From positions 371,202,166 to 371,266,165 of the forward strand of contig NC_080672.1 in assembly GCF_030247195.1 (NCBI RefSeq): a stretch of DNA of 64,000 nucleotides, written 5' to 3'. Source of the stretch: Topomyia yanbarensis. Its lineage: Eukaryota; Arthropoda; Insecta; Diptera; Culicidae. Position 1 is the first letter of the stretch. Every line of letters begins with the position of its first letter. Below, piece by piece: positions 1 to 61,916 of the stretch. Under the pieces are notes generated by a model, which searched no databases, was not told where the DNA came from, and saw only the letters and a program-made list of their open reading frames with translations. A program made the translations under genes and the position numbers.

Positions 1-454
1 AAAAATGAAAAATGCGAGCGTTTTCCTGTCCAGTAAAAAAATAGAAATGGCGCTTATACGACTTTGAATATATACTCTTTATTTGCACTCAGTCAAGTGA
101 ATCGCTTGCTGACTTATTCTTGAAATAATTTGATTTTGGAGGACAATTCAATTACACTACTTACCCAGCGGCTTATTCCACAGTTTCATTAGTGTTTAGA
201 ATGAATTATTCATGAAAAATTAGGAAGTCTTGTGAAACTAGTATTTTGGGAAAAAAGACTAGTGAGTTCTACCCGAATCGATAGAATGTTCTAGCCGGAT
301 AGGCGTCAATTTTTTTTTATTTTATGGTTGTAAAGCAATTAATAATTTGCACAGTTGTACCAACCTAAACGAATATTTAGAAATCCGTTAGCAACACAGC
401 AGAAAAAAACCCAACCTAATGAGAAACTGTATTTTTTGCACCTTCGCCCGCTAG

Positions 455-542
455 ATGAAGCCTTCTCTGCTGCCCATCCTGCTCAAGGTGCTGACCTGCA
501 TTGTGCTACCCGGAGGCCTGAATGCCCAGAAGGAGGGTAATG
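455..542 (+). CDS. burs: bursicon alpha, signal-peptide exon (candidate)
   Basis: An ATG at 455 opens a 29-codon frame with a short basic start (MKPS) and a hydrophobic run (LLPILLKVLTCIVLPGG), then NAQKEGN. This is a typical secretory signal peptide. The frame runs into a consensus 5' splice site (G^GTGAGT at 542/543), which leaves the exon in phase 1; a weaker donor G^GTAATG at 536/537 is also phase 1. The assignment to burs rests mainly on the clear burs terminal exon 750 bp downstream on the same strand; signal peptides alone are not diagnostic. Bursicon is a secreted cystine-knot neurohormone (heterodimer with partner of bursicon, acting through the receptor rickets/LGR2) that drives cuticle tanning and wing expansion after eclosion. 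The mature domain is not encoded here. Confidence 0.65.
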
Positions 543-1292
543 GTGAGTAAATGCCAGCTCAAAATAAACACGTTGCACCCGTTGGTTGGTTGGTTGCTGA
601 ACTAGTCGCTCGCGGTTTGTGCCATTTGATACGGCGCGGTGTGGCGGCGGGTTTCGAAGACCGGGCGGGCTGCCGGAAATATGTACATACATACCTACAT
701 ATAAAACGGGATGATAACCGTAAAGCGCTGTATGCTAATTTATTATCAAGCCATAAAAACTAATTTATTCCGCAGGTTTTATAGAGGTTGGTTGGCTGGC
801 TGGCTGGTTGGTCGGAATTGTTGGGTTAACCAGAAAAACCTCTGCCAGGTTCAGCGTTCGACGTAAATTAATATTACACTGTCTCTTTCCAGCATTTTGC
901 CACCTGGCCTGCGAATAGGTTTGAAACCGAACAGAACCAACTTGGTTCAGTATTCTCCGGTTGGAAAAACTTGCACCCTCTGGAATATAATTAAATCAGT
1001 CGATTTTCAGGTTTTTGAACACTAAACAGCAGTTGCAGCGGTAGGTTGGATGAATAATGTCCCGATGAAATGTGAGCTGTTTGCATCATAATGGGAATTT
1101 AAATATAGTTTTAACGAGTCTCCAGTTAGCAGTTTTGTGTATTCGTAATTTTTTTGGTCGTGATGTGAAATCTAAGCATGTGCATGGTATTATTGTACCG
1201 AAATGTGGATAACAGCGAACTAATTGATCACTTTTGCTTTTATTTTCATCCTATTCATCCGAACTAATCGGAACCATTACGGATGGATGTAG
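543..1292 (+). other. burs intron interval lacking the cystine-knot exon
   Basis: This interval lies between the signal-peptide exon and the last burs exon. No frame in it encodes the cysteine-rich core expected between them. It holds GGTT/GGCT-rich tracts (about 580-600 and 785-815) and a pyrimidine-rich stretch near 1229-1258 ahead of the 3' splice site TAG at 1290-1292. Joining the flanking exons directly would shift the frame, because the donor is phase 1 and the acceptor is phase 0. Confidence 0.6.
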
Positions 1293-1442
1293 GTTTCCAC
1301 GAAGGCTCCACTGGAGTGCATGTGCCGTCCCTGTACCGGAATCGAGGACTCCAACGTGATCCCGCAGGAGCTGGCCGCGTTTGCCGATGATGGAACACTG
1401 ACCAGCTATTTCCAGAAGGGACAGTTCAAGTCGGTTGAATAA
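1293..1442 (+). CDS. burs: bursicon alpha, terminal exon
   Basis: After a 3' splice site (TAG^GTT) a 49-codon frame reads VSTKAPLECMCRPCTGIED and continues with NVIPQELAAFADDGTL to a TAA at 1440-1442. The block KAPLECMCRPC followed by IEDS..IPQE is the conserved C-terminus of insect bursicon alpha, with the last cysteines of the cystine knot. The exon starts in phase 0. In Drosophila these residues directly follow the rest of the knot in one protein; here the preceding knot residues are absent from the local DNA. A published study (Robertson and colleagues, 2007) reported that mosquito burs mRNA is assembled by trans-splicing, with one internal exon supplied from a separate locus. The arrangement here fits that model. 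Confidence 0.9.
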   Translation, partial: VSTKAPLECMCRPCTGIEDSNVIPQELAAFADDGTLTSYFQKGQFKSVE

Positions 1443-1443
1443 A
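1438..1443 (+). promoter_or_regulatory. Possible polyadenylation signal of burs
   Basis: An AATAAA hexamer overlaps the stop codon of the terminal exon and is followed by a GT/T-rich stretch (1445-1465) of the kind found downstream of cleavage sites. If used, the 3' UTR would be extremely short, so a later site is also possible. Confidence 0.35.
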
Positions 1444-1734
1444 ATGTTTTTGTTTTGTTTTTTGCGTTCAATTTTATCACTTGAATTTTAATCATTTCGT
1501 TGGAGCAAGAGAGAATTGTTATTTTATGTGGAGATGATTAATCTTATCAGCCATAAATATATGTCGGGGAATATGTACTGTTTGCTTAATGGAATTATTA
1601 GAGAGAAAAGTTCATGAGCGCAAAACGTTGAAAACTTGTTGATCTTCTGATTGAAAATTAAAATTTTCATGGACTCTTGTAGTACCGCGAAAGGAAATAC
1701 CGCAATTGAATTTTTTTCAAGGAATTTGTTGCGT

Positions 1735-1837
1735 AATAGGGGAGGGGGGCTAGAGGAATTTGTGAAAATTTGTTACGTGTGAGGAGGGGGAGTCAATTTT
1801 AGGCAATTTTTGTTTTACGTAATTTATGAATGGTCCC
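1735..1837. mobile_element. Half of a MITE (right end)
   Basis: The segment ends in TACGTAATTTATGAATGGTCCC and carries GTTACGTGTGAGGAGGGGG upstream. This matches the right end of the MITE at 12888-13185 (ATCCATAAATG / CATTTATGGATGGTCCC ends, TACGT and poly-G/C interior). The left end is missing. Confidence 0.45.
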
Positions 1838-2235
1838 TTAGAATTTTAACGATTTTTTTTAAACCAGTTCCTCTTGTGTTCGATTCTATTTTGTTTCCAC
1901 GGTAGTTTCTTGTGGAATAACCTATCTTTTATTGTTGAGTGATTCGTCCTAATGCGCGCAGTACAAAAACTGCGATTCATGAGGGGCGAAAAAATGATTA
2001 ATTGAAATATAGAACTTTTTCACGATTTTCTGAAAGATTGTTTTGGTTTTTGTTTTCAGTTTATCTATGCAGTTGTAAATACCAAAATCCAATATATTTT
2101 CAGCAAAAATGTTCGGACTTATTTATTAAATTCTCGTATGTTAGTTCTAAAAAGGGCGTTTGATGACAGAAAAGGTGGAAGAAAATGCTGCAATCTTTTA
2201 ATAGTTCAAATTTCATTTGATATCGGCACGAAACG
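1838..2235. other. No recognisable feature
   Basis: AT-rich sequence without long frames or clear repeats that I could identify. Confidence 0.5.
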
Positions 2236-2236
2236 G

Positions 2237-2565
2237 ACCAAAGCTGCATTTGATCGAGTTGATCACGGAATTTTTATGACCAAAGTAAACAAGCGTCTGC
2301 GAATTTAATCGGTTGGTTGAGCTCATATTTACGTACCCATATGAAGGCCGTTAAACTGGGTGCTTCTATATTTGGCTGATTAAGTTACAATTCAGGACAA
2401 TACTCTGGGTCCTTTGTTATTTTCATTGTTTATCAGTAACGTATTCCGCCTACTTCCTCCAGATACACGTTTACTATACGTTTATTGATGTCAAAATGTT
2501 CATGAGTATTGAAACCTTTAATGATTGTGAAGAGTTACAGGAATCGGTCAATAGGTTCGATCGTC
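2237..2565 (+). pseudogene. Decayed Jockey-like non-LTR reverse transcriptase fragment
   Basis: The piecewise translation shows TKAAFDRVDHGIFMTK (RT block A, normally AFDxVDH), then a frame change, then GPLLFSLFISNVFR (block B region, GPLLFxLFINDI) and IDVKMFMSIETFNDCEELQ (block C region, usually ADDVKLF followed by DC..LQ). One catalytic aspartate of the usual YADD is lost and there are several stops and frameshifts. The order and spacing fit a Jockey/CR1-type reverse transcriptase. It is a dead fragment with no flanking domains preserved. Confidence 0.7.
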
Positions 2566-2810
2566 CGGCAGCCATATTTACAATTTTAACAGAGAACAAT
2601 TATTATTACATCAAATGTTGCCTCTACTGCTGCCAATTTCCAATAACTCACAGCCTTGCATAGGTATAAATTTCCAGTAACTAGCAATCTGTAGCCGTAT
2701 GAAAGGGACGCTCTCATAGTTAAATTTAACCATTCGAGAGGAAATATCAATCGAGCTGTCTCATTTAAACCAAATGTTAAAAAACAATCGCCAAATGGAT
2801 CACAGCCCTA

Positions 2811-2830
2811 GAAGAGAGAGAGAGAGAGAG
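2811..2830. repeat. (GA)n microsatellite
   Basis: Ten uninterrupted GA dinucleotides. Confidence 0.9.
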
Positions 2831-3014
2831 TAGGCGAATCCTGAGACAAGACGTGTGTGTAGTAACTATATTAACAGTTAGACGGACACAAAATGCTAAA
2901 AATCGGCAGCTCTTATCCCAGAAATAAAATTTCGGCAACCCATGCAAATGTTTCAGCTTTAGTTGTATGCACTCATACAAGCAACATGACCAGAGCTGGA
3001 CGAAACTCGATGGA

Positions 3015-3931: not shown

Positions 3932-5296
3932 ATGGCCGAGGGCGAAGTAACATTGGATGGGAATGATATTCCCATGGATATACCGGATAAACCCGAAATT
4001 GCTCCCTCCCCTGATTCCCCCAGTCCTCCCCGTATTAAGACATACCCAGCCAGTTCGACTGGACCCTGGGTGGTGTATTTCCGGCCCAACACGAAATCGC
4101 CCAATATTCTAGAAGTCTCACGGGAGCTGACTGCCAACTACCCGTCCGTGGCTCAGATAACACGTGTTCGAGCTAATAAGATACGCGTTATGGTAAATGA
4201 CCTCGACCAGGCAAACCAGATTGCTCGCAGCGAGCGTTTTACGAAGCAATTCAAAGTGTATGTGCCTTGTAGAGTTGTGGAGATCGATGGGGTCGTCGCC
4301 GAACCGGGTCTAAAGTGCGAAGACCTGTTGAAGTACGGGGTTGGCTGCTTTAAGGACCCTTCACTTCAAAAGGTGAAAATTCTGGAATGCAAGCAATTGT
4401 ATTCCGCAAAAACTGAAGATGATAAGACAACTTATTCTCCGTCAGACTCGATTCGGGTGACTTTCTCCGGATCTGCTCTTCCCAACTATGTCCTCCTGGA
4501 TAAGGTTCGCCTACCTGTTCGCCTATTTGTACCGCGGGTAATGAACTGCAGCAATTGCAAGCAACTGGGCCACACAGCCACTTATTGTGGCAATAAAAAA
4601 CGGTGCGGCAAATGCGAGGGAGAGCATGAGGATGACGCTTGCGGTGGAGAAACTGAGAAGTGTATTTACTGCGGGGGCCCTCCGCATGCTCTTAAGTCAT
4701 GCCCGGCGTACAAGCAGCGCGGGGATAAAATTAAGCGCTCCCTTAAGGATCGCTCGAGGCACTCTTATGCAGAAATGCTAAAGAATGCTTCGCCATCTGT
4801 CCCTTCCGAAAATTCCTTTGCTCTTTTGGCTGGCGTTGAGCAAGAATCTGACGACCCACAAGAGGGAACATCATTGGTTAACCCAGGGGAATCCAGGAAG
4901 AGGAGAAATCTAGCCTCACCTACATTGCCTCGTAAGGGTGCCAAGGTGTCGTCCACTCAGAGTGCGCCAACCGCAATCAATAAATCCAACGGAAGTGATG
5001 CACAAAAGCCGAAGCAATTTGCTCCAGGACTTGGAAATCTTAATTCTAACAAGGAGTACCCACCACTTCCAGGGACACCAAAAACCCCAAGTGTCCCCTT
5101 TTTTCAAACAGATACTCAGTCCAGTAGCGGACTAATGAAATTTTCTGACATAGTGGACTTAATTTTCACAGCTTTCAATGTTACTGATCCTCTTAAAAGC
5201 CTTCTGATACGTTTTCTCCCTATAGTGCAAACATTTTTGAAGCAGTTGACTACTAAATGGCCCCTCCTTGCAGCGATCGTATCCTTCGATGGCTAA
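3932..5296 (+). CDS. Retrotransposon ORF1 protein (gag-like, three CCHC zinc knuckles)
   Basis: A 454-residue protein. The N-terminal third is acidic and proline-rich (MAEGEVTLDGNDIPMDIPD), followed by a region starting KTYPASSTGPWVVYFRP which in I-clade ORF1 proteins precedes the RNA-binding domain. Three zinc knuckles are visible: C206-C219 (CSNCKQLGHTATYC), C225-C237 (CGKCEGEHEDDAC, one residue shorter before His) and C244-C257 (CIYCGGPPHALKSC). A basic segment (DKIKRSLKDRSRHSYAEML) follows, then a low-complexity tail and a hydrophobic C-terminus. By analogy with I-factor ORF1 it would bind element RNA and form the ribonucleoprotein. Its stop codon overlaps the ORF2 start (ATGGCTAA, 5289-5296). 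The frame is intact. Confidence 0.9.
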   Translation: MAEGEVTLDGNDIPMDIPDKPEIAPSPDSPSPPRIKTYPASSTGPWVVYFRPNTKSPNILEVSRELTANYPSVAQITRVRANKIRVMVNDLDQANQIARSERFTKQFKVYVPCRVVEIDGVVAEPGLKCEDLLKYGVGCFKDPSLQKVKILECKQLYSAKTEDDKTTYSPSDSIRVTFSGSALPNYVLLDKVRLPVRLFVPRVMNCSNCKQLGHTATYCGNKKRCGKCEGEHEDDACGGETEKCIYCGGPPHALKSCPAYKQRGDKIKRSLKDRSRHSYAEMLKNASPSVPSENSFALLAGVEQESDDPQEGTSLVNPGESRKRRNLASPTLPRKGAKVSSTQSAPTAINKSNGSDAQKPKQFAPGLGNLNSNKEYPPLPGTPKTPSVPFFQTDTQSSSGLMKFSDIVDLIFTAFNVTDPLKSLLIRFLPIVQTFLKQLTTKWPLLAAIVSFDG

Positions 5297-8200
5297 GTCA
5301 TCGAACGAGGTCACCGATTCGATCACTGTTCTACAGTGGAACAGCAGAAGTATCCTCCCGAAAATCGATTCCTTTAAATTTTTACTAAATAGTTTAAAAT
5401 GTGATGCTTTCGCATTATGTGAAACTTGGTTAACTTCCGATATAAATCTCAACTTCCACGACTTTAATATAATTCGTCTGGATCGAGAAAACCCCTATGG
5501 AGGAGTACTTTTGGGGATCAAAAAGTGCTATTCTTTCAACCGAATTAACCTCCCTTCGACACCAGGCATTGAAATTGTCGCTTGTCAAGTTTTAATCAAA
5601 GGTAAAGACCTTTGCATTGCTTCCATCTACATTCCTCCTAGAGCCTCGGTAGGGCACCGAACGCTTTGTAATATCACGGAATCCTTACCGGCACCGCGGC
5701 TAGTTCTGGGAGACTTTAACTCGCACGGTACGGTATGGGGCTGTCTTCATGATGATAATAGATCAACATTAATCCAAGATCTTTGCGATAATTTCAACAT
5801 GACCATCTTAAACACGGGAGAAATGACGCGGATTCCTACACCACCAGCACGCGCAAGCGCGTTGGATTTGTCGCTTTGCTCGACATCGCTACAGTTAGAT
5901 TGCATGTGGAAGGTGATCCCTGATCCCCACGGTAGCGACCATTTGCCTATCGTGATTTCAATTGCTAACGGTTCAAGACCATCGGAAACAATCAATGTAT
6001 CGTATGACCTCACACGGAACATTGATTGGAAGAGTTACGCGACCGCGATATCCGTTAAAATCGAATCCACTCAAGAACTTCCTCCGGAGGAAGAGTACAG
6101 GTTTTTGGCTGGCTTGATTCTCGACAGTGCGAATCAAGCTCAGACTAAACCAGTACCCAGCGCGAATACCCATGGACGGTCTCACACCCTGTGGTGGGAT
6201 AAAGAGTGCTCAGAGCTGTACGCGGAAAAGTCCACTGCATATAAGACCTTCCGGGAAGACGGGTTACCCGCTAGCTATCAACAGTACGCGTCGTTAGAAA
6301 GGCGAATGAAGAGCCTAATGAAAGCCAAAAAACGCAGTTATTGGCGCCGGTTCGTCGACGGGTTAACGAGAGAAACAGCGATGAGCACTCTTTGGGGTAC
6401 GGCTCGACGTATGCGTAACCGTAATAGTACCAACGAGAACGTGGAATATTCAAACCGTTGGATATTCGCTTTCGCCAAGAAAATCTGTCCGGACTCTGTC
6501 CCGGTACAGAAAACGTGCCGCGCCGCGTCTCCTCACGATACCGCGAACGAAACACCGTTTTCGATGGTGGAGTTCTCACTTGCTCTCTTATCATGCAACA
6601 ATAACGCCCCAGGGTTAGACAGAATCAAATTCAACTTGCTGAAGAATCTGCCTGACACTGCAAAAAGGCGCTTGTTGAATTTATTTAACAAGTTTCTTGA
6701 GGGTAACATTGTCCCTTATAAATGGAGGCAAGTGAAGGTCATCGCCATCCAAAAACCAGGAAAACCAGCCTCCGACCACAACTCGTATCGACCGATTGCA
6801 ATGCTGTCCTGTATTCGGAAGTTGTTCGAGAAAATGATCTTGTTTCGCCTCGACAATTGGGTTGAAGCAAATGGCTTACTGTCAGATACACAATTTGGCT
6901 TCCGCAAAGGCAAAGGGACGAACGATTGCCTTGCGTTGCTTTCTACAGAAATCCAAATGGCCTATGCTAACAAAGAGCAGATGGCATCAGTCTTCTTGGA
7001 TATTAAGGGGGCTTTTGACTCAGTTTCTATCAACATTCTGTCAGAGAAGCTGCACCAGCATGGTCTTTCGCCAATTTTAAATAACTTTTTGCTAAACCTG
7101 TTGTCTGAAAAGCACATGCACTTTTCGCATGGCGATTTAACAACATCGCGATTTAGCTACATGGGTCTTCCCCAGGGCTCATGTCTAAGTCCCCTGCTCT
7201 ACAATTTCTACGTGAATGACATTGACGATTGTCTTGCCAATTCATGCACGCTAAGGCAACTTGCAGACGACGGGGTGGTCTCTGTTACAGGGCCCAAAGC
7301 TGCCGACTTGCAAGGACCATTACAAAATACCTTGGACAATTTGTCTGCTTGGGCTCTTCAGCTGGGTATTGAGTTCTCCACGGAGAAAACTGAGTTGGTT
7401 GTTTTTTCTAGGAAGCGTGAGCCGGCGCAACTCCAGCTTCTATTGATGGGTGCAACGATCAACCAGGTTTTCACATTTAAATATCTCGGGGTCTGGTTCG
7501 ACTCTAAAGGTACCTGGGGATGTCACATTAGGTATCTGAAACAGAAATGCCAACAAAGGATCAATTTTCTCCGAACAATAACTGGAACATGGTGGGGTGC
7601 TCACCCAGGAGACCTGATCAGGTTATACCAAACAACGATATTGTCGGTGATGGAGTACGGGAGTTTCTGTTTCCGCTCCGCTGCGAACATACACTTCATC
7701 AAACTGGAGAGAATCCAGTATCGTTGCTTGCGCATTGCCTTGGGTTGCATGCACTCGACCCATACGATGAGTCTCGAAGTGCTGGCGGGCGTTCTTCCGC
7801 TAAAAAATCGATTTTGGGAACTCTCATATCGATTGCTCATCCGATGCGACATTCTGAACCCGTTGGTGATTGAAAACTTCGAGAGGCTCGTCGAGCTTAA
7901 TTCTCAAACCCGATTTATGGCCTTGTACTTCGACTACATGGCACAGAGCATTAATCCTTCTTCATATACTCCCAGCCGTGTTCGTTTCCTAGATACTTCT
8001 GATTCTACTGTATTCTTCGACACATCCATGAAGGAAGAGATTCGTGGAATCCCGGACCATATACGCCCGCAGGTGATCCCCAATATATTTTATAATAAAT
8101 TCCAAGAAGTCGACTGTGACAAAATGTTTTACACTGACGGATCAAATCTCGATGGGTCCACTGGCTTCGGTATCTTCAACAATACTATCACCGCTTCATT

Positions 8201-8975
8201 CAAGCTCAATGATCCCGCTTCAGTTTACGTCGCAGAGTTAGCTGCAATTCAGTACACTCTTGGGATCATCGACACTCTGCCCACAGATCACTACTTCATC
8301 ATTTCGGACAGCCTCAGCTCCATCGAGGCTCTTCGTGCGATGAAGCCCAAAAAGCAATTCCCATATTTCCTGGGGAAGATACGGGAGTCCTTGTGTACGT
8401 TATCTGAAAAATCTTATCAAATTACCTTTGTTTGGGTCCCCTCTCATTGCTCTATCCCGGGAAATGAAAAGGCCGACTCATTAGCAAAGGTGGGCGCATT
8501 AAATGGTGACATATACGAAAGACCAATCTGCTTCAACGAATTTTTTAGTATTTGTCGTCAGAGGACACTCAACAGTTGGCAAACCTCGTGGAGCAATGGT
8601 GAACTTGGACGATGGCTACATTCCATTATCCCAAAGGTATCAACGAAGCCTTGGTTCAGGGGGATGGATGTGGGTCGGGATTTTATTCGTGTAATGTCCC
8701 GACTTATGTCCAACCACTACACCTTGGATGCGCATCTGCGGCGTATTGGGCTTGCGGAGAGTAGTCTGTGCGCTTGTGACGAGGGCTATCACGACATCGA
8801 GCACGTTGTCTGGGTATGCGCCGGGTACTTGGACGCCAGGTCTCAGTTAAAGGATTCCCTTCGGGCCCGAGGTAGACCACCCAATGTCCCAGTCCGAGAT
8901 ATACTGGCAAATCGTGATTTCCCCTATATGTCCCTTATTTATACTTTCATAAAAACGACAAATATCCCCATTTAG
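5289..8975 (+). CDS. Retrotransposon ORF2: endonuclease, reverse transcriptase, RNase H
   Basis: I chose ATG 5289, giving 1228 residues, because it overlaps the ORF1 stop and this overlap is kept in element 2; an in-frame ATG at 5268 also exists. Residues 12-225 are an APE-type endonuclease (ITVLQWNSRS, GDFN at 141-144, GSDHLP with D217/H218). The reverse transcriptase spans about 450-760: YRPIAMLSCIRKL at 500, FLDIKGAFD with D571, GLPQGSCLSPLLYNFYVND, and QLADDGVV with D660/D661 (LADD replaces the commoner YADD). RNase H follows: D950 (YTDGS), E983 (VAELAA), D1007 (ISDSLSS), and HCSIPGNEKAD with D1063. Near the C-terminus a CACDEGYHDIEHVVWVC motif starts at C1161. All catalytic residues are present and no stops occur. 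It would nick the target and prime cDNA synthesis on it. Confidence 0.93.
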   Translation: MAKSSNEVTDSITVLQWNSRSILPKIDSFKFLLNSLKCDAFALCETWLTSDINLNFHDFNIIRLDRENPYGGVLLGIKKCYSFNRINLPSTPGIEIVACQVLIKGKDLCIASIYIPPRASVGHRTLCNITESLPAPRLVLGDFNSHGTVWGCLHDDNRSTLIQDLCDNFNMTILNTGEMTRIPTPPARASALDLSLCSTSLQLDCMWKVIPDPHGSDHLPIVISIANGSRPSETINVSYDLTRNIDWKSYATAISVKIESTQELPPEEEYRFLAGLILDSANQAQTKPVPSANTHGRSHTLWWDKECSELYAEKSTAYKTFREDGLPASYQQYASLERRMKSLMKAKKRSYWRRFVDGLTRETAMSTLWGTARRMRNRNSTNENVEYSNRWIFAFAKKICPDSVPVQKTCRAASPHDTANETPFSMVEFSLALLSCNNNAPGLDRIKFNLLKNLPDTAKRRLLNLFNKFLEGNIVPYKWRQVKVIAIQKPGKPASDHNSYRPIAMLSCIRKLFEKMILFRLDNWVEANGLLSDTQFGFRKGKGTNDCLALLSTEIQMAYANKEQMASVFLDIKGAFDSVSINILSEKLHQHGLSPILNNFLLNLLSEKHMHFSHGDLTTSRFSYMGLPQGSCLSPLLYNFYVNDIDDCLANSCTLRQLADDGVVSVTGPKAADLQGPLQNTLDNLSAWALQLGIEFSTEKTELVVFSRKREPAQLQLLLMGATINQVFTFKYLGVWFDSKGTWGCHIRYLKQKCQQRINFLRTITGTWWGAHPGDLIRLYQTTILSVMEYGSFCFRSAANIHFIKLERIQYRCLRIALGCMHSTHTMSLEVLAGVLPLKNRFWELSYRLLIRCDILNPLVIENFERLVELNSQTRFMALYFDYMAQSINPSSYTPSRVRFLDTSDSTVFFDTSMKEEIRGIPDHIRPQVIPNIFYNKFQEVDCDKMFYTDGSNLDGSTGFGIFNNTITASFKLNDPASVYVAELAAIQYTLGIIDTLPTDHYFIISDSLSSIEALRAMKPKKQFPYFLGKIRESLCTLSEKSYQITFVWVPSHCSIPGNEKADSLAKVGALNGDIYERPICFNEFFSICRQRTLNSWQTSWSNGELGRWLHSIIPKVSTKPWFRGMDVGRDFIRVMSRLMSNHYTLDAHLRRIGLAESSLCACDEGYHDIEHVVWVCAGYLDARSQLKDSLRARGRPPNVPVRDILANRDFPYMSLIYTFIKTTNIPI

Positions 8976-18372: not shown

Positions 18373-19671
18373 ATGGATGAAGAGATGGGAGAACGAGTAA
18401 CAGACCCTCCCCCTAAGCCTTATGCTGAAAATGTAAATCCGACTAGAATTAAAATTTACCCAGAGTCGTCAACGGGACCATGGATTGTATTTATTAGGCG
18501 TAAAGCAAAGGCGCTAAATATCATTCAAATTTCTAAAGATTTGACTTCTCGGATGTAAAAGAGATCGTCAAAGTTAATAAAGATAAAATACGCATTGTCG
18601 TTGGTTGTCTCAAACAAGCCAATGCAATTGCTTCTTGCGAGCTTTTTACGCGTGAATATAGAGCGTATATTCCTTCAAAGGAAATTGAAATTGATGGGGT
18701 CATCACAGAATCGAGTTTGACTGTTGATGACTTAGTTAAGCATGGGGTTGGTCGTTTCAAAGACACCATACTTAAAGACGTAAAAATACTTGAATGCAAG
18801 CAATTGCATTCAGTATCACACGAAGGAGATAAAAAAGTTTATCGACTGTCTGACTCATTTCGAGTGACTTTCGCTGGGTCTGCGCTGCCCAACTATGTCA
18901 TTATCGATAAGATTCGTCTCCCTGTTCGCCTTTTTATCCCTCGTGTAATGAATTGCCTTAATTGCAAACAGCTTGGCCACACAGCCACTTACTGTTCCAA
19001 TAAGGCACGGTGTGGCAAATGTGGGGGTTCTCATCAAGAGGATACATGCAATGAAAATTCAGAAAAATGTTTAATGTGCGGAGAAAACTCACATGAGCTC
19101 CCTGCATGCCCCATTTATAAATTGCGTGAGGATAAAATTAAACGATCCTTGAAGGAGAGGTCTAAGCGCTCCTATGCAGAAATGTTGAAAAATGCTACCC
19201 CTAAACCCATCTTCTTAGAAAACACTTACGCATCTCTATTTTCGGAACAGTCTGACTCTGACGGAGCGTGCGAAGGTACATCATTTGTTTTACCCGGAAA
19301 TTCCAGAAAAAGAAAACAGTCTTCTTTTCCCAAGCTGCCAAGCAAGGGCCTTAAAATTTCTCCACCAATAGATAAACTGCGCCCAAAACCGAAAAATTCC
19401 GATTCAAAACCGAAATCAATTCCGCCCGGTTTTGGGAACGTACAATCCAAACAGAACACCATTACTGGAAATAATAAAATTTCGACTTCCTCTGAGGATT
19501 ATTGGATTATTGAAATTTTCTGAAATTGTTGATTGGATTTTTAAAGCATTCAATATTTCTGAACCACTAAAGAGTATACTTTCAGCTTTCCTCCCAACAA
19601 TTAGAACATTTTTAGAGCAGCTGATTGCTCAATGGCCCATCCTTGCAGCGATTGTATCTTTCAATGGGTAA
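18373..19671 (+). pseudogene. Element 2 ORF1 (frameshifted)
   Basis: The first segment (MDEEMGERVTDPPPK to SKDLTS) breaks at about 18550; the second frame runs from DVKEIVKVNKDKIRIVV to about 19500 and carries three zinc knuckles (CLNCKQLGHTATYC, CGKCGGSHQEDTC, CLMCGENSHELPAC); the third frame resumes with KFSEIVDWIFKAFNISEPLK and ends at TAA 19669-19671. Sequence and knuckle spacing follow element 1 ORF1 closely, including the shorter second knuckle. Two frameshifts make it non-functional. Confidence 0.85.
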
Positions 19672-22600
19672 TTCACCTCCTCCAATGAAAGATTCCATCA
19701 CTGTTTTACAGTGGAATTGCAGAAGTATCATACCTAAAATTGATTCCTTAAAAATTTTACTGCATAATTTAAAATGCGATGCTTTTGCTCTATGTGAAAC
19801 ATGGCTTACCTCAAACATTAATTTCAACTTAAATGATTTCAACATTATTCGCCTAGACCGAGACACCCCGTATGGAGGAGTGCTTCTAGGAATTAAAAAG
19901 TGCTATTCTTTCTATAGAATTACCATCCCCATGATTGCTGGCATTGAGGCTGTAGCAGTCCAAACGAATATTAAAGGCAAAGACATGTCTATCGCTTCTA
20001 TATATATACCTCCCAAAGTTCAAATTGGACAACGTCAAATTTTTGAGGTAGTGGAATCGATGGCTGCTCCGCGTCTGATACTGGGAGACTTCAACTCGCA
20101 CGGAGTATTGTGGGGTTCCCTCTACAATGATAATCGATCCTCTTTGATATACAATGTTTGTGACGAATTTAATATGACAGTTTTAAATACTGGCGAAACA
20201 ACACGCATCCCCAGACCTCCTGCACGTCCAAGTGCATTAGATCTATCTCTGTGCTCGACATCACTTCGGTTAGATTGCACGTGGAAGGTTGTACCTGATC
20301 CTCACGGTAGCGATCATTTGCCAATCGTTGTTTCAATTAACAGTGAATTAGGCCTTACGAATTCAATCAATGTTCCTTATGACTTAACACGAAATATTGA
20401 TTGGAAAACATACGAAACATTAATTTCCACTTCTCTTGCTTCGACAGAAGAGCTACCCCCTACCGAAGAATATGAATTCTTAGCGGGTTTAATTATTGAA
20501 GCAGCAGAACAAGCCCAAACGAAATGCAATCCTGGAATGACAATAAATAGACGGCCCCCTAATCCTTGGTGGGACAAAGAGTGCTCTGATGCATATAAAG
20601 CTAAACAAGTTGCCTACAAAGAAATTATGAAACAGAAAGGGGGTATACGTGAGAACTTTGAAAATTATTTCATGCCAAAAAATCTAGTTATTGGAGACAC
20701 TTCGTTAATGGCTTGTCAAGAGAAACATCAATGAGTACTCTTTGGAACACAGCCAGAAGAATGAGGAATCGAAACGTGACTAATGAAAGCGAAGATTTTT
20801 CGAATCGTTGGATATTTAATTTTGCCAAGAAAATTTGTCCCGATTCTGCTCCTGCGCAGAAAATCACTCGCGATGCTCCCACAAGTAACGATTTCATAGA
20901 TTCGCCTTTGACAATGATGGAATTCTCAATTGCACTCCTCTCATGCAACAATAATGCTCCGGGACTAGACAGAATTAAATTCAACTTGGTGAAGAATCTG
21001 CCTGACCTAGCAAAAAGACGCTTGTTGAATTTATTCAATAAGCTTCTTGAGCAGAACATTGTCCCGCACGACTGGAGACAAGTGAGAGTTATCGCTATTC
21101 CAAAACCGGGAAAACCAGCCTCCGATCATAACTCGTATCGACCGATTGCAATGCTATCCTGCATCAGGAAATTGTTGGAAAAAATTATCCTACGACGTCT
21201 CGACAATTGGGTTGAGGCGAACGGCTTGCTATCAGATACCCAGTTTGGTTTTCGGAGAGGAAAGGGAACGAATGATTGTCTGGCGCTACTTTCGTCAGAA
21301 ATCCAACTCGCTTACGCAAAAAAAGAACAAATGGCGTCTGTGTTCTTAGACATAAAAGGAGCATTCGACTCAGTCTCCATTGATGTTCTCTCGGAGAAGC
21401 TACATCAATGTGGTCTTTCACCGATATTAAATAATTATTTATACAATTTATTGTCAGAAAAGCACATGCATTTTTCATATGGCGATTTGGCGACACTCAG
21501 AATAAGTTACATGGGCCTCCCACAAGGCTCTTGTCTAAGCCCCCTTCTCTATAATTTTTACGTGAATGACATTGATAATTGTATTGTCAGCCCATGCACT
21601 TTAAGACAACTTGCAGATGATGGGGTGGTTTCTGCCACAGGACCAAAAGCTATAAATTTACAACAACCATTGCAAGATAGCTTGGATAATTTATCAATTT
21701 GGGCTTTAAAACTGGGCATCGATTTCTCTACGGAGAAAACAGAGTTGGTCGTTTTCTCAAGGAAGCGTGATCCGGCTCAGCTTCAGCTTCAGTTGGTTGG
21801 TAGAACGATAGCCCAAGTCCTGACTTTTAAATACCTTGGAATTTGGTTCGATTCTAAAGGCACATGGGGAGGCCACATTAGGTATCTAATAACGAAATGC
21901 CAACAAAGGATAAATTTTCTGCGAACAATAACTGGATCATGGTGGGGTTCTCATCCAAGTGACATGATAAGATTGTATCAAACAACAATACTTTCAGTAA
22001 TGGAATATGGGTGCATCTGTTTCCGTTCAGCTGCGAACACTCACATTATTAAACTGGAACGGATACAGTATCGCTGTTTACGAATTGCCTTAGGTTGCAT
22101 GCAGTCGACCCATACGATGAGTCTTGAAGTACTAGCGGGAGTTCTTCCTTTAAAAGACCGATTCTGGGATCTTTCTTCTCGTTTACTTATTCGATGTGAG
22201 GTTATGAACCCACTGGTAATTGATAATTTTGAAAGACTTGTCGAGCTTCAACCCCAAACCAGATTCATGACAGTGTATTTCAATCACATGTCACAAGAAA
22301 TAACGCCTGCTAGGTATGTTCCCACATACGTCAATATACTAGATATTCCTGAATCCACTTTATTCTTCGACACGTCCATGCAAGCAGAGATTCGTGGAAT
22401 TCCGGATCATCTACGCTCGCGGGAGATCCCTAAAATATTCACAAGTAAATATCAACACATAGACTGCCTTAAAATGTTTTACACTGATGGGTCACGAATC
22501 AGTGAGGCCACTGGTTTCGGTATTTTCAACAATAATTTTTCAATTTCTCTCAAACTTGCAGAACCCGCCTCTGTTTATATAGCGGAACTAGCAGCAGTTC

Positions 22601-23325
22601 ACTATAGTTTTCAAATAATTAATACTTTACCCCCGAACCATTACTTTATCCTCACTGATAGTCTCAGCACAATTGCAGCTCTACGCTCAAAGAGGATTGA
22701 TAATCACGATCCATTCTTTTTGGGGAAGATACGAGAATCTCTGAGTAACCTGACAAGAAAATGTTATAAATTTACCCTAGTGTGGCTCCCCGCCCATTGC
22801 TCTATTGCGGGCAATGAGAAAGCTGATAATTTAGCCAAGATTGGTGCACTAGATGGTGAAATATATGAAAGACCCATCGCTTACAATGAATTTTATAGCG
22901 CTTCTCGACAGAGGACACTTGCTAGTTGGCAAACATCTTGGGACAATGGAGATATGGGACGATGGCTACACTCAATTATCCCTAAAGTATTAATGAAGGC
23001 ATGGTTCAAAGGATTGGATGTAAGTCGGGACTTCATCCGTGTGATGCCTAGGCTCATGTCCAATCATTATGCTTTAGATGCGCATCTCCGTCGTATTGGG
23101 CTCGCTGAGGGTAATCATTGTGCTTGTGGAGAAGGTTACCATGACATTGAGCATGTTGTTTGGTCCTGCACTGAATATCGTGAAGCCAGATCACAATTAG
23201 TAGATTCTTTACAAGTCCGAGGAAGACCAATCCATGTTCCTGTTAGAGACATCCTGGCGTATCGCGATCCTCTATACATGGAACTTATCTATCATTTTCT
23301 AAAAACAGCGTCTGTCAAAATTTAA
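19664..23325 (+). pseudogene. Element 2 ORF2 (one deletion/frameshift)
   Basis: The first part (from ATG 19664) contains the whole endonuclease: ITVLQWNCRS, GDFNSHG and GSDHLP. At about 20645-20675 sequence equivalent to the ASLERRMKSLMK region of element 1 is missing and the frame changes. The second part continues AKKSSYW..., then the RT (FLDIKGAFDSV, GLPQGSCLSPLLYNFYVND, QLADDGVV), RNase H (FYTDGS, AELAA, LTDSLS, HCSIAGNEKAD) and the terminal CACGEGYHDIEHVVWSC motif, to a stop at 23323-23325. All catalytic residues are retained, and apart from this lesion the frame is open, so loss of coding capacity may be recent. Confidence 0.88.
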
Positions 23326-23655: not shown

Positions 23656-25274
23656 TATTTTAAAGGTAAAGTTTTCATTAATAAAATAGTTTTCCGAAGT
23701 TTAGATTACATTTTCAATTTGTTTATTTCACAACCTAGTTTAGTCAATTGATAGTACCCTGCACAGTTGTCCGCGAAACCCCTCCGATTACCCAGTAGTA
23801 AGCCGACCCTGAGACCCAGTTCGAGGGGGCTCTTGCTACTGAGCTTTACCGGGATACACAGTAAAAAAAAGTTACAAAGGCGGAGATTTTCGTGAAAAAT
23901 AATTTTTTTTATTTGAAATGAGTAAAAAACCTTGCAACCGTGTTTGTGTTTTATTGCTATTTTGATTTTGACTTTGCACTACACCAATGTATTCGACGTC
24001 ACACTTATTCAAACTTGGATGTAGTCAGTATTTCCCTGTTTTTTTCACTACACCAGTGTAACCCCGTGTAAAAAAGAAAACGCTGTTAATTTGTAGTGTA
24101 TTTTTAAGAATCTCAAAAGGTTTTTGAAATATACAATAAACATGTTGTCCGAGAATTAAAAACGAGATTGATGGTCACTTTTGCAATACTAAACAATTTT
24201 CACAGAAACATTAGCGCCTAAATCACTCCTGCCGACATGCAACACTCAATAAACTTCAAAGGTCAACTATCTGTTAAACTATTTCAAACACCTAATTTGT
24301 TCTGCTCGTTCGCACTAGTTATTCACGGCTTCAATTCACTCCGCTTGGTTCGGAGCGTAAATTTGGAAGGCAAATCTCCAACGAACCATCATTTATTAAA
24401 ATCGCTGGGATCATCCAGTTGTGTCACCAAGGAAGCGCCTAGCTGCCATAATTCCGTAGAATCAGCCACTCTTGAAACGTCATTGAGCATGGGATGAACT
24501 GTGCTTATCGTTTAGCATACCCATTCAAGCGTTCCACCGAGCGAACCGAACATTGGCGAAAAGTGCCTCGTGCCTATCTACACGTATCAGGTAGGAACAG
24601 TCTACGAGGCAGCAGCAGCAACTGTGTTCACTGTCGACTGAATCGCTGAATGACTGCCACGACCGGATGAGCATTACGTAGGTACCTACAATTTACTATA
24701 GTATAGGCAGACTGTATCCACAGTGATCCGCGGGCAGCTGTTGCCTTTCTCAGGCGCGTTGGAAAAACCCACCCACTCAATTTTCACCGTTCCGTGGGCT
24801 TGGCGACTCGTTCGAAACGTTTGATTTTCTGACCTTTTCTCCCCTTCGCCACCCTCGCCGGCCTGCCTGTTTGTTGCCCTTGCTAGAGAGCTGTTACAAT
24901 AATAATTGATCGTCGCCGGCATCAGATTGCCATGATAACGAGCGGAAGGCGATGTTAATCAACGATTATCGTTATGGCGTTATGATGGCCGACATAAGGT
25001 TGGATGCGGATGGTTCTCTTTCTCACTTTTCACTACTTTGTTGGAATGATGATGCTACACTGCTAGAGGAGCGAGAGAAGTCCTTTGATGTCAGTTATCG
25101 ATGTGGAACACTTGTCAACTACGTGTATTCTCAAGCAATAACAACATAAACAGTGTGTTAATAACCCAAGAATACGCGTGGCCAACCAAGTTTTTACGGC
25201 GACAGTTTTTGCTCGTTCGCTCGTGTATCTGTCAAGTTGAAAGAAAAAATACAAATGGTGGCGTTAGTGTTTTG
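23656..25274. other. No recognisable gene
   Basis: Mixed AT-rich and GC-richer sequence (24500-25000 is GC-richer). Short frames exist without identifiable products. Part near 25020-25270 could be 5' untranslated sequence of the candidate split gene described next, but nothing proves it. Confidence 0.35.
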
Positions 25275-36776: not shown

Positions 36777-36852
36777 TGTCCTCAAGTAGGAATCGAACCT
36801 GCGATCTCCCAGTCTCTAGTTGAGTGCGTTAACCACCCCGCCATCGAGGAAC
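36777..36852 (-). tRNA. tRNA-like sequence (SINE head or tRNA pseudogene)
   Basis: The minus strand has TGGCGGGGTGGTTAACGC (A-box-like) and GGTTCGATTCC (perfect B box) at tRNA spacing, starting GTTCCTCGATGG and ending TTGAGGACA. The acceptor stem pairs at only five positions and the anticodon stem is poor, so a functional tRNA is unlikely. It lies between the two 62-bp direct repeats. Confidence 0.5.
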
Positions 36853-53894: not shown

Positions 53895-54495
53895 TAAATT
53901 AAATAAATGAATTAACTAAAGAAATACAAGACCATATGCACTCCATGAATTAAATTAATAACATTATTTAAATGAATAAAATAATATAATTACTCAAATT
54001 AATAAAATGAACAAAATGAATAAAAATAAAAAAGTGACTCAAATTAATGAAATGAATTAAATAAATGAATCATACAAAAAAAAATAAACGAAGCGTATAA
54101 AATAAAAAAAAAGTTAGAAGTAATAAAATTTATAATGCGAATAATATAATAAAATAACAAAATTAATAACTGTAATTAATTGTATAGATTAATAAAATGA
54201 TCAAAATCAATGAAATGAAGCAAAAAAATTAAAGAAATTAATAAAATGATTAAAATGGATGGTTTGAATAAAATAAATAGAATTAAAATAAACAGAATGA
54301 ATTAATAAGACATAACCCTCAAAATGAATAGACCTAATAAAATAATATTACCAAACTGAATATGATTATAAACATTGGTAAAATAAAACTAATCAAGTAA
54401 TAAAAGAATAAAATTAATAAAATTAATTTTAATTAAATGGGTAATAATAAGAATAAAATTAATAAAATTCGATACTGGTTGTGTAAGGGCCTAAA
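53895..54495. repeat. Degenerate AATAAAAT-rich border of the minisatellite
   Basis: Irregular repetition of AATAAAATNAAT-like words, thinning out toward the left. It looks like an older, decayed part of the adjacent array. Confidence 0.6.
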
Positions 54496-55415
54496 TTGCA
54501 TAAAATGCGCAAAATGAATAAAATGCGCAAAATGAATAAAATGCGCAAAATGCATAAAATGCGCAAAATGCATAAAATGCACAAAATGAATAAAATGCGC
54601 AAAATGCATAAAATGCGCAAAATGCATAAAATGCGCAAAATGTATAAAATGCGCAAAATGCATAAAATGCGCAAAATGCATAAAATGCGCAAAATGCATA
54701 AAACGCGCAAAATACATAAAATGCAGAAAATGGGCAAAATGTATAAAATGCGCAAAATGCATAAAATACGCAAAATGCATAAAATGTACAAAATGAATAA
54801 AATGCGCAAAATGCATAAAATGCGCAAAATGCATAAAATGCATAAAATGCGCAAAATGCATAAAATGCGCAAAATGTATAAAATGCGCAAAATGCATAAA
54901 ATGCGCAAAATGCGCAAAATGCATAAAATGCGCAAAATGCGCAAAATGCATAAAATGCGCAAAATGCATAAAATGCGCAAAATGCATAAAACGCGCAAAA
55001 TACAGAGAATGGGCAAAATGCATAAAATGCATAAAATGTATAAAATGCATAAAATGCGCAAAATACAGAAAATGCATAAAATGCATAAAATGCATAAAAT
55101 GCATAAAATGCATAAAATGCATAAAATGCATAAAATGCATAAAATGCATAAAATGCATAAAATGCATAAAATGCATAAAATGCATAAAATGCATGAAATG
55201 CAAAAAAGGCATTAAATGCAAAAAAGGCATAAAATGCAAAAAAGGCATAAAATGCAAAAAAGGCATAAAATGCAAAAAAGGCATAAAATGCAAAAAAGGC
55301 ATAAAATGCAAAAAAGGCATAAAATGCAAAAAAGCATAAAATGCAAAAAAGGCATAAAATGCAAAAAAAGGCATAAAATGCAAAAAAGGCATAAAATGCA
55401 TAAAATGAAAGAAAA
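54496..55415. repeat. 9/18-bp minisatellite with three domains
   Basis: 54496-55070: alternating 18-mer ATAAAATGCGCAAAATGC with AATAAAATG and single-base variants. 55072-55189: about 13 perfect copies of the 9-mer ATGCATAAA. 55200-55400: 18-mer AAAAAAGGCATAAAATGC, about eleven copies with occasional indels. Because the unit is a multiple of three, several frames on both strands stay open (for example MHKMRK repeats); these are not genes. There are no flanking coding signals. Confidence 0.95.
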
Positions 55416-55586
55416 GAATAATGAATAAAATAGATGAAATCAATAGAAGTAAAAAATGAACAAAATAAATAAAAAACGAATCGAATTGATGAAATTAATA
55501 AAAGAAGTAAAAATAAACAGATCGCATTTAATGAATAAAATGAAAAATTGCGCACTATTAAAAAATAATAAAATCAATAGAATAAA

Positions 55587-60618: not shown

Positions 60619-61916
60619 AAGGGCGAACACGAAATTATTGCGACACCGAAAATGTCATGCCAATTTTCTTATAATGTTTAAAATCAAACCAAAATTTTAG
60701 GGTAGTTTTATACATATATTTACTTCAAAAATCAAAAGAAAAGTTAATCGATGGAGCCTTGAGTGTAAAATTGAACGCATTTTCGCTTGATGCCCTTCAT
60801 CAAAGTCTTTACAGTGTCATCCGGTACCAGTTTCTCAGTTTTTTTTCCATTTTCTTAACATGTCCTTCTCGTCTTTGACTGTCTTCTTGCTCTTCCGAAG
60901 TTCCCGCTTCATCATTGCCCAGTACTGCTCCACCGGGCGCAGCTCCGGACAGTTTGGCGGATTCATGTCCTTTGGAACAAAATGGACAGAATTGGCCTCA
61001 TACCACTCCAGGACACTTTTAGAATAGTGGTATGATGCCAAATCTGGCCAAAATAGCGGAGCTTCGTCGTGCTGCTGCAAGAACGGTAAAAGGCGCTTCT
61101 CGAGGCACTCAGACTTGTAGATCTCGCCATTTACTGTGCCCTTTGTCACGAAAGGCTCACTCCTCAGTCCGCAAGAGCAGATGGCCTGCCAAATGAGATA
61201 TTTGGAGGCGAACTTCGACATTTTCTTCTTCTTAAATTTGTCGTCCACATAGAATTTGCTCTTGTCGGTGAAAAACTCCAACCCCGGAATTTGCTTAAAA
61301 TCGGCTTTTATATACGTTTCGTCGTCCATCACACAGCAGCCATATTTTGTCAGCATCTTCTCGTAGAGCTTCCGTGCCCGAGTTTTAGCCGTCGATTGTT
61401 GCCGCTCATAGCGGTTTGAGAAGTTTTGTATCTTGTATGTATGTAGTCCAGCTCTCTTCTTTGCATTCTGGACGTAGCTCTGCGACATGCTGATCTTTTT
61501 AGCCAAATCACGGCTTGAGACGTTGGGATTTGCTTTTATTCGTCCGCTTCACCTATCCCTCCGTCTTTTTGTTCTCCGGTCCCGGTTTTCTTCCAGTTCC
61601 TTTGCCGTGGTTCAACGTCAACCGCTCCTGGAACCGCTTCAACACTCTGGAGACGGTTGAATGGTGAATGTTCAACATTTTTCCCAACAGCCGGTGCCAC
61701 AGGTCAGGAAATTCCAGGTGTTTGGAAAGAATTTGTTCTCTCGACTCGCGTTGGTTCACCTCCATTTTCGTTGAATCGAAAAACACGACTTCGAGTTTGA
61801 CAGCATGTAAACAATACACATCAATGAGAAAATGTGCAAAATTTGGTTGATTTTTACCCAATTGTAAAAAAGTTATGCCCTGTTGAATGTGTCGCAATAA
61901 TTTCGTGTTCGCCCTT
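60619..61916 (-). mobile_element. DD37E Tc1/mariner-superfamily transposon
   Basis: 1298 bp with perfect 28-bp terminal inverted repeats starting AAGGGCGAACACGAAATTAT (60619-60646 and 61889-61916) and TA on both sides (60617-60618, 61917-61918). The empty site ...GGACTAGGAATCGACT is predicted by the left palindrome arm (CGATTCCTAGTCCCACC). It carries a transposase on the minus strand with one lesion. A decayed relative is at 3015-3300. Confidence 0.92.
60835..61765 (-). pseudogene. DD37E transposase, frameshifted
   Basis: I place the start at ATG 61765 (MEVNQRESREQILSKHLE), because an open frame further upstream runs through the terminal repeat. The first frame has the helix-turn-helix region (HHSTVSRVLKRFQERLT) and GTGRKPGPENKKTEG, ending at a stop at 61553-61555. 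A frame change at about 61507-61550 separates it from the second frame, which starts NPNVSSRDLAKKISMSQSYV and contains the catalytic core: MDDETY, FWPDLASYHYS and RPVEQYW. Thirty-seven residues lie between the second Asp and the Glu, the DD37E signature known from mosquitoes. The C-terminal stop is at 60835. The single lesion prevents activity. Confidence 0.88.

Follow-up and report, generated by a model that had tools for sequence, protein, structure and literature searches.

Introduction

The bursicon alpha gene (burs) of mosquitoes, which encodes a subunit of the cuticle-hardening hormone bursicon, is reportedly expressed by trans-splicing, as Robertson et al. (2007; Genetics 176:1351) are said to have described for Anopheles, Aedes and Culex, where the two loci were named burs124 and burs3. 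In other species burs3 is said to be a single donor locus, and a study by Roy (2016; bioRxiv 050625) reportedly also deals with trans-splicing of mosquito burs. In the split introns of Giardia, pairing between the intron halves acts as a guide. The work of Robertson et al. on mosquito bursicon trans-splicing is cited in the accessible portions of PMC7524744, PMC4414376 and PMC5224939. For mod(mdg4) and lola of Drosophila, the accessible portions of PMC12692577 and PMC10645366 describe exons of separately transcribed units that are joined by the spliceosome, either obligatorily or frequently. In the literature searched, outside which most subscription papers lie, we found neither a report of guide pairing for bursicon nor an explanation of how the two bursicon transcripts meet.

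Here we describe a putative acceptor locus of this kind in Topomyia yanbarensis, a sabethine mosquito (Culicidae, Sabethini) with a genome assembly of 1.168 Gb in 1044 contigs. The window, that is, the whole stretch of DNA analyzed, comprises 64,000 nucleotides (C3:371202166-371266165), and the locus lies near its start. The remainder of the window contains a mir-137 microRNA precursor (25114-25186, minus strand; 80.6 bits, gathering score 56.7), a tRNA-Ser (AGA) (36778-36850, minus strand), and a non-LTR retrotransposon-like element (3932-8975, plus strand) whose frames of 454 and 1241 aa include endonuclease, reverse transcriptase and RNase H. A related element (18537-23325, plus strand) is split over several frames. 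A 237-aa transposase-like frame (60835-61548, minus strand), which matches DDE_3, is adjoined by a 120-aa frame (61553-61915), and a long tandem simple repeat (54433-55573) is open in several frames on both strands.

Results and Discussion

Outer exons at the acceptor locus

The initial annotation of this DNA described a signal-peptide exon and the last exon of bursicon alpha in mutually incompatible frames, and direct reading bears out both exons as well as their phases. The signal-peptide coding exon (455-542, plus strand) encodes MKPSLLPILLKVLTCIVLPGGLNAQKEGN plus one base and ends at the donor site AATG|GTGAGT in phase 1. The last coding exon (1293-1442, plus strand) encodes VSTKAPLECMCRPCTGIEDSNVIPQELAAFADDGTLTSYFQKGQFKSVE followed by a stop codon. 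It is preceded by GATGTAG, an acceptor in phase 0, and the segment leading up to it (1264-1292, plus strand) carries a branch-like CTAAT at -29 in addition to the acceptor AG. Joining 542 straight to 1293 in cis shifts the frame and leads to a premature stop. The interval between the two exons (543-1292, plus strand), which would behave as two half-introns, is 750 bp long, contains no N and is single-copy in the genome. The last exon is also single-copy, matching only the window when searched alone genome-wide. The entire 1021-bp acceptor locus is unique by copy search, with no second copy in the genome.

The stretch directly before the signal-peptide exon (416-454, plus strand) is acceptor-like. 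Since a branch-like CTAAT lies at -39 and CTAG immediately precedes position 455, an untranslated exon 1 is probably located further upstream, and GTGAGT at window position 262 is one candidate for its donor. When the Culex N-terminus was used as a query for exon 1 against the window and 20 kb upstream, the only sensible match was to the 455-542 exon itself. The Anopheles acceptor-locus models P0164, P0165 and P0166 likewise begin MKST..AQKD, a likeness judged by eye, while BLASTP with the 29 aa of the signal exon returned zero alignments.

The annotation had found no cystine-knot exon in the interval or in the rest of the window, and our searches agree. Inspection by eye of the six frames of window positions 1-3000 showed no cystine-knot coding, and when the whole genome was searched for bursicon (E up to 10), the window was matched only once, at the last exon (E 8e-12). 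Neither the frame reading nor the genome search turned up such an exon between 543 and 1292 or in any other part of the window.

The cystine-knot exon is present in three copies on another contig

The genome-wide search, which the annotation had called for, used a Drosophila bursicon query and gave six matches. Three of these are strong, and all three are on the plus strand of C2 (470,223,097 bp), a chromosome-scale contig other than C3, where the window lies. They correspond to three donor copies: c1 at C2:339765130 (query 41-129, 88% identity), c2 at C2:339771879 (query 41-129, 88% identity) and D at C2:339924374 (query 41-128, 89% identity), each on the plus strand. Two weak matches on C2, L006 (E 0.19) and L007 (E 2.1), were dropped, as their translations look unrelated. 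A contiguous copy of bursicon alpha was not found in this genome-wide search.

In each of the three copies, the donor is a single uninterrupted and intact exon of 257 nt, bordered by CGCCAG|AT at its start and AAAAAA|GTACAT at its end. The latter conforms weakly to the common 5' splice site consensus. The phases fit at both joins for c1, c2 and D, and the outer splice sites are compatible only by way of this distant exon, so that the need for an intervening trans-spliced exon, as argued in the annotation, is supported. Combining the outer exons with any of the donor copies yields a coding sequence of 495 nt and an identical protein of 164 aa, in which 8 cysteines are contributed by the donor exon and 3 by the last exon. 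The DAN domain (PF03045) is detected in the joined 164 aa (E 2.2e-7) and in the donor exon (E 3.6e-8); the last exon alone has no PF03045 match. With a DAN domain and a bursicon-type C-terminus, the joined protein belongs to bursicon alpha of the DAN/cystine-knot family. It is 96% identical to the Culex pipiens protein P0002 over 86% of the query.

Copies c1 and c2 are part of a 6757-bp tandem duplication whose units show 2 mismatches (C2:339761598-339775103; L009/L010), which may be very recent and real, or may be an assembly duplicate. Copy D is located 152-159 kb from them. Between the exons of c1 and D there are 3 differences in 257 bases, none of which alters the protein. In the flanks, where gap columns (8 in -400..0) are excluded from the counts, c1 and D differ by 5 substitutions over 393 aligned sites between -400 and the exon, by 3 over 199 in the 200 nt behind it, and by 42 over 427 between -930 and -500 (Fisher p 3e-8 for -930..-500 against -400..0). 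Conservation in this donor block, at the 160-kb scale, extends past the exon. Flank and exon do not differ in their degree of conservation (Fisher p 1.0), which fits two explanations: the donor minigene may be wholly under constraint, or it may have been evened out by gene conversion. Further downstream of D, a stretch of ~840 bp has no counterpart in c1, and beyond it identity is 92% over 391 bp. A TATA-like TATATAC is visible by eye near -385 of the donor. A satellite-like array lies upstream of both the c1/c2 and D donors (L008, 707-7005; L011, at least 672-2728); BLAST offsets put its period at about 56 bp.

Bursicon records in mosquitoes and other flies

A protein search returned 444 matches; the counts given here are drawn from 120 listed, using records named as mosquitoes. 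Among these listed matches, 20 of the 21 named mosquito records (1 Aedes aegypti, 2 Culex, 2 Topomyia and 15 Anopheles) have the cystine knot without the KAPLEC tail. The remaining one is P0002 of Culex pipiens, which is full length and carries exactly the predicted joins, AQKEGN-DDIQHY and KFKK-VSTKAPLEC. P0002 is a UniRef-type protein record that we take to be derived from a transcriptome. When the last exon was used as the query, five proteins matched: four are mosquito models without a cystine knot, and the fifth is P0167. The last exon stands nearly alone in P0163 of Culex pipiens pallens, and P0163 and the lone donor model P0118 are each on a contig of 186,194,774 bp. In Anopheles P0164, P0165 and P0166, the signal exon is joined to the last exon via short fillers. 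Lone-exon models occur separately in Aedes, Culex and Anopheles. Knot and tail are found within one protein in Drosophila (P0008), a sand fly (P0006), a biting midge (P0029) and chironomids (P0069 and P0081). Thus, among the protein records compared, mosquitoes share the split and the five other flies lack it.

The two bursicon-like models of T. yanbarensis, P0123 and P0124, are both models of the C2 donor exon. P0123 reads through the c1/c2 exon and its flanks. In P0124 that exon is preceded by a first exon consisting of repeat sequence (150 scored matches among 290 candidates); this first exon was rejected as a genuine donor-side exon, and because of it P0124 looks like a gene-model artefact. 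Automated annotation scatters the bursicon gene, the Topomyia models covering the donor exon only. In Timema, the model P0001 (283 aa) is a single protein with two tandem bursicon-alpha units.

The interval contains tracts complementary to the donor flank

The annotation had put forward two possible marks of the interval for trans-splicing: its GGTT/GGCT tracts, and complementarity to the donor locus. The two proposals amount to the same thing, because the GGTT/GGCT tract is complementary to the 5' flank of the donor; this lends them partial support, some of which is weakened by a composition control. In tract A (580-597, plus strand; CGTTGGTTGGTTGG..), the 11 nt of 580-590 are perfectly complementary to the donor flank at ~-54 in all three copies. 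Tract B (785-815, plus strand; AGGTTGGTTGGCTGGCTGGCTGGTTGGTCGG), to which the composition caveat applies, pairs through 787-815 with -269..-241 of D in a helix of 29 nt with 2 mismatches and 3 G-U pairs (score 60), and through 785-803 with -275..-257 of c1 (score 41); helices were scored ungapped with G-U allowed. The complementarity was first spotted by eye, and both flanks were then tested. The perfect complement at window 790 with the donor at ~-270 is 14 nt for c1 and c2 and 15 nt for D, where c2, with a flank nearly identical to that of c1, was scored for perfect matches only. The perfect matches at 790 and 580 are ordered as in one antiparallel duplex.

The score of the helix with D was reached by 0/2000 shuffled flanks, 0/2000 shuffled intervals, 0/2600 genomic 300-mers against the interval and 0/1000 genomic 750-mers against the flank. 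For c1 the corresponding values are 11/2000, 0/2000, 17/2600 and 2/1000. An earlier, smaller run gave 0/200 in all four upstream shuffles. On the downstream side of the donor, shuffled flanks reached the real helix score in 178/200 (c1) and 151/200 (D) cases, and controls reached the co-folding energy in 85/240 (c1) and 74/240 (D); pairing there was rejected, with both helix and energy at control level.

Co-folding of 543-842 with the upstream 300 nt gave interaction energies of -39.9 (D) and -37.5 (c1). These were not reached by random 300-mers in a first run (0/160, and 0/80 against the D flank) or in a second run (0/500). Random against random gave 1/200, and random 300-mers paired with the D flank reached the D value once and the c1 value twice in 500. 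Of eight donor tiles (four each for c1 and D) folded with the 750-nt interval, those immediately upstream of the exon were the only two to stand out (0/240 controls each), the other tiles being reached by 31 to 233 of 240 controls; 4/400 random 750-mers against the D flank reached the D value and 7/400 the c1 value. Shuffled intervals never reached the co-fold energies (0/150). Shuffled D flanks folded with the real interval reached the D value in 16/150 cases and the c1 value in 33/150. Base composition, with a C/A-rich flank and a G/T-rich interval, explains much of the co-folding energy. Since shuffled flanks reach the real energies, the specific helix is the better evidence. RNAduplex over the full lengths was uninformative. 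Tracts A and B are partly paired within the interval (unpaired 0.21 and 0.32, mean 0.41), and the core 14-mer GGTTGGCTGGCTGG has 111 sites in the genome, compared with 162 for the reversed control. A partner for tract A was not seen by eye in the visible flank (~96 nt) of Aedes aegypti P0122, with the tract B site falling outside that flank, and the genome and viral contig sets searched contained no other mosquito DNA.

Proposed mechanism and alternative explanations

We consider it very probable that the bursicon alpha gene of T. yanbarensis is split over C3 and C2 and depends on trans-splicing, the splicing act in this species being what we infer from the sequence. This confidence covers the split gene and trans-splicing, and leaves pairing aside. 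It draws on the observed exon content, phases, positions, copy numbers and joined Culex record. The identification of an acceptor locus in the annotation gains support from the C2 exon, the required phases and the joined record of Culex pipiens. In the proposed scheme, 455-1442 would be the outer (acceptor) locus, whose C3 pre-mRNA would carry the signal-peptide exon and the last exon, and a separate C2 transcript would carry the lone 257-nt cystine-knot exon. Two trans-splicing events, from 542 to the donor exon and from the donor exon to 1293, would give one mRNA with 495 coding nt for the 164-aa hormone subunit. Such an internal exon from another chromosome in a hormone mRNA would be a very rare gene layout.

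Two ways of doing without trans-splicing can be weighed against this scheme. A cystine-knot exon truly located between 542 and 1293 could have been misplaced by an assembly error. The assembly does comprise 1044 contigs, but the interval is free of N, the exon is found at three places where the shared flank runs to hundreds of bp or more, lone-exon models occur separately in three mosquito genera, and the Anopheles acceptor models P0164-P0166 have no cystine knot; such an error is highly improbable. We give even less credence to the locus being a decayed relic of a gene whose intact, working copy lies outside the assembly. The reading frames of the outer exons and of the three donor exons are uninterrupted and their splice sites agree in phase, the differences between the c1 and D exons are all silent in the protein, and the genome-wide search found no contiguous copy.

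How the two RNAs of the split gene would be brought together is a separate question. Tentatively, the donor 5' flank may do so by base pairing with tracts A and B, although we think the chances are somewhat against it. The interval 543-1292 would then possibly be an RNA docking site, where A and B form a duplex with the 5' flank of a separately transcribed C2 donor minigene. One duplex at 580-815 could hang the donor exon between the outer splice sites and serve both joins, an arrangement that would agree with the absence of downstream pairing. The minigene, spanning about -450 to +200 relative to the exon, would have been kept as a unit and triplicated. Alternatively, trans-splicing could be guided by intronic protein or U1 snRNP motifs, or by nuclear closeness of the loci, with the complementary tracts a by-product of the G/T richness of the interval and the C/A richness of the flank. 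On balance we regard this alternative as slightly more likely than not. It is favored by the shuffled flanks that match the real co-fold energy, by the core 14-mer being less frequent than its reversed control, by the partial pairing of both tracts inside the interval, and by the lack of a tract A partner in the visible Aedes aegypti flank. In Drosophila mod(mdg4), trans-splicing is attributed to intronic motifs, a U1-binding sequence among them, according to the accessible portions of PMC12692577 and PMC10645366. A by-product does not readily account for the D helix, which neither shuffled flanks nor genomic 300-mers matched, for the c1 helix, which they seldom matched, or for the confinement of the signal to the two of eight donor tiles directly upstream. 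For the docking proposal, the 29-nt tract and the donor copies differing in pairing strength are concrete targets for mutation.

Comparison with known trans-splicing systems

The Topomyia locus resembles the mosquito burs system in that the same gene is concerned, the internal exon comes from a distant locus and the outer exons stay together. It has three donor copies, compared with the one reported for other mosquitoes, a difference that we regard as variation rather than as grounds for exclusion. It also differs in coming from a sabethine, in having donor and acceptor on different chromosome-scale contigs, and in the complementary tract described here. The triplicated donor and an interval tract complementary to the donor flank appear to be new. 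As with the split introns of Giardia, pieces of a coding region from distinct loci would be joined by trans-splicing, although Giardia, unlike a mosquito, is a protist (PMC5224939, accessible portions). With mod(mdg4) and lola the locus shares the joining of separately transcribed exons and a possible role of intronic sequence, and those genes, as far as covered by the accessible portions of PMC12692577 and PMC10645366, combine a common 5' part with alternative 3' exons, mostly at one locus. Topomyia bursicon, in contrast, would receive one internal exon from another chromosome and require two joins.
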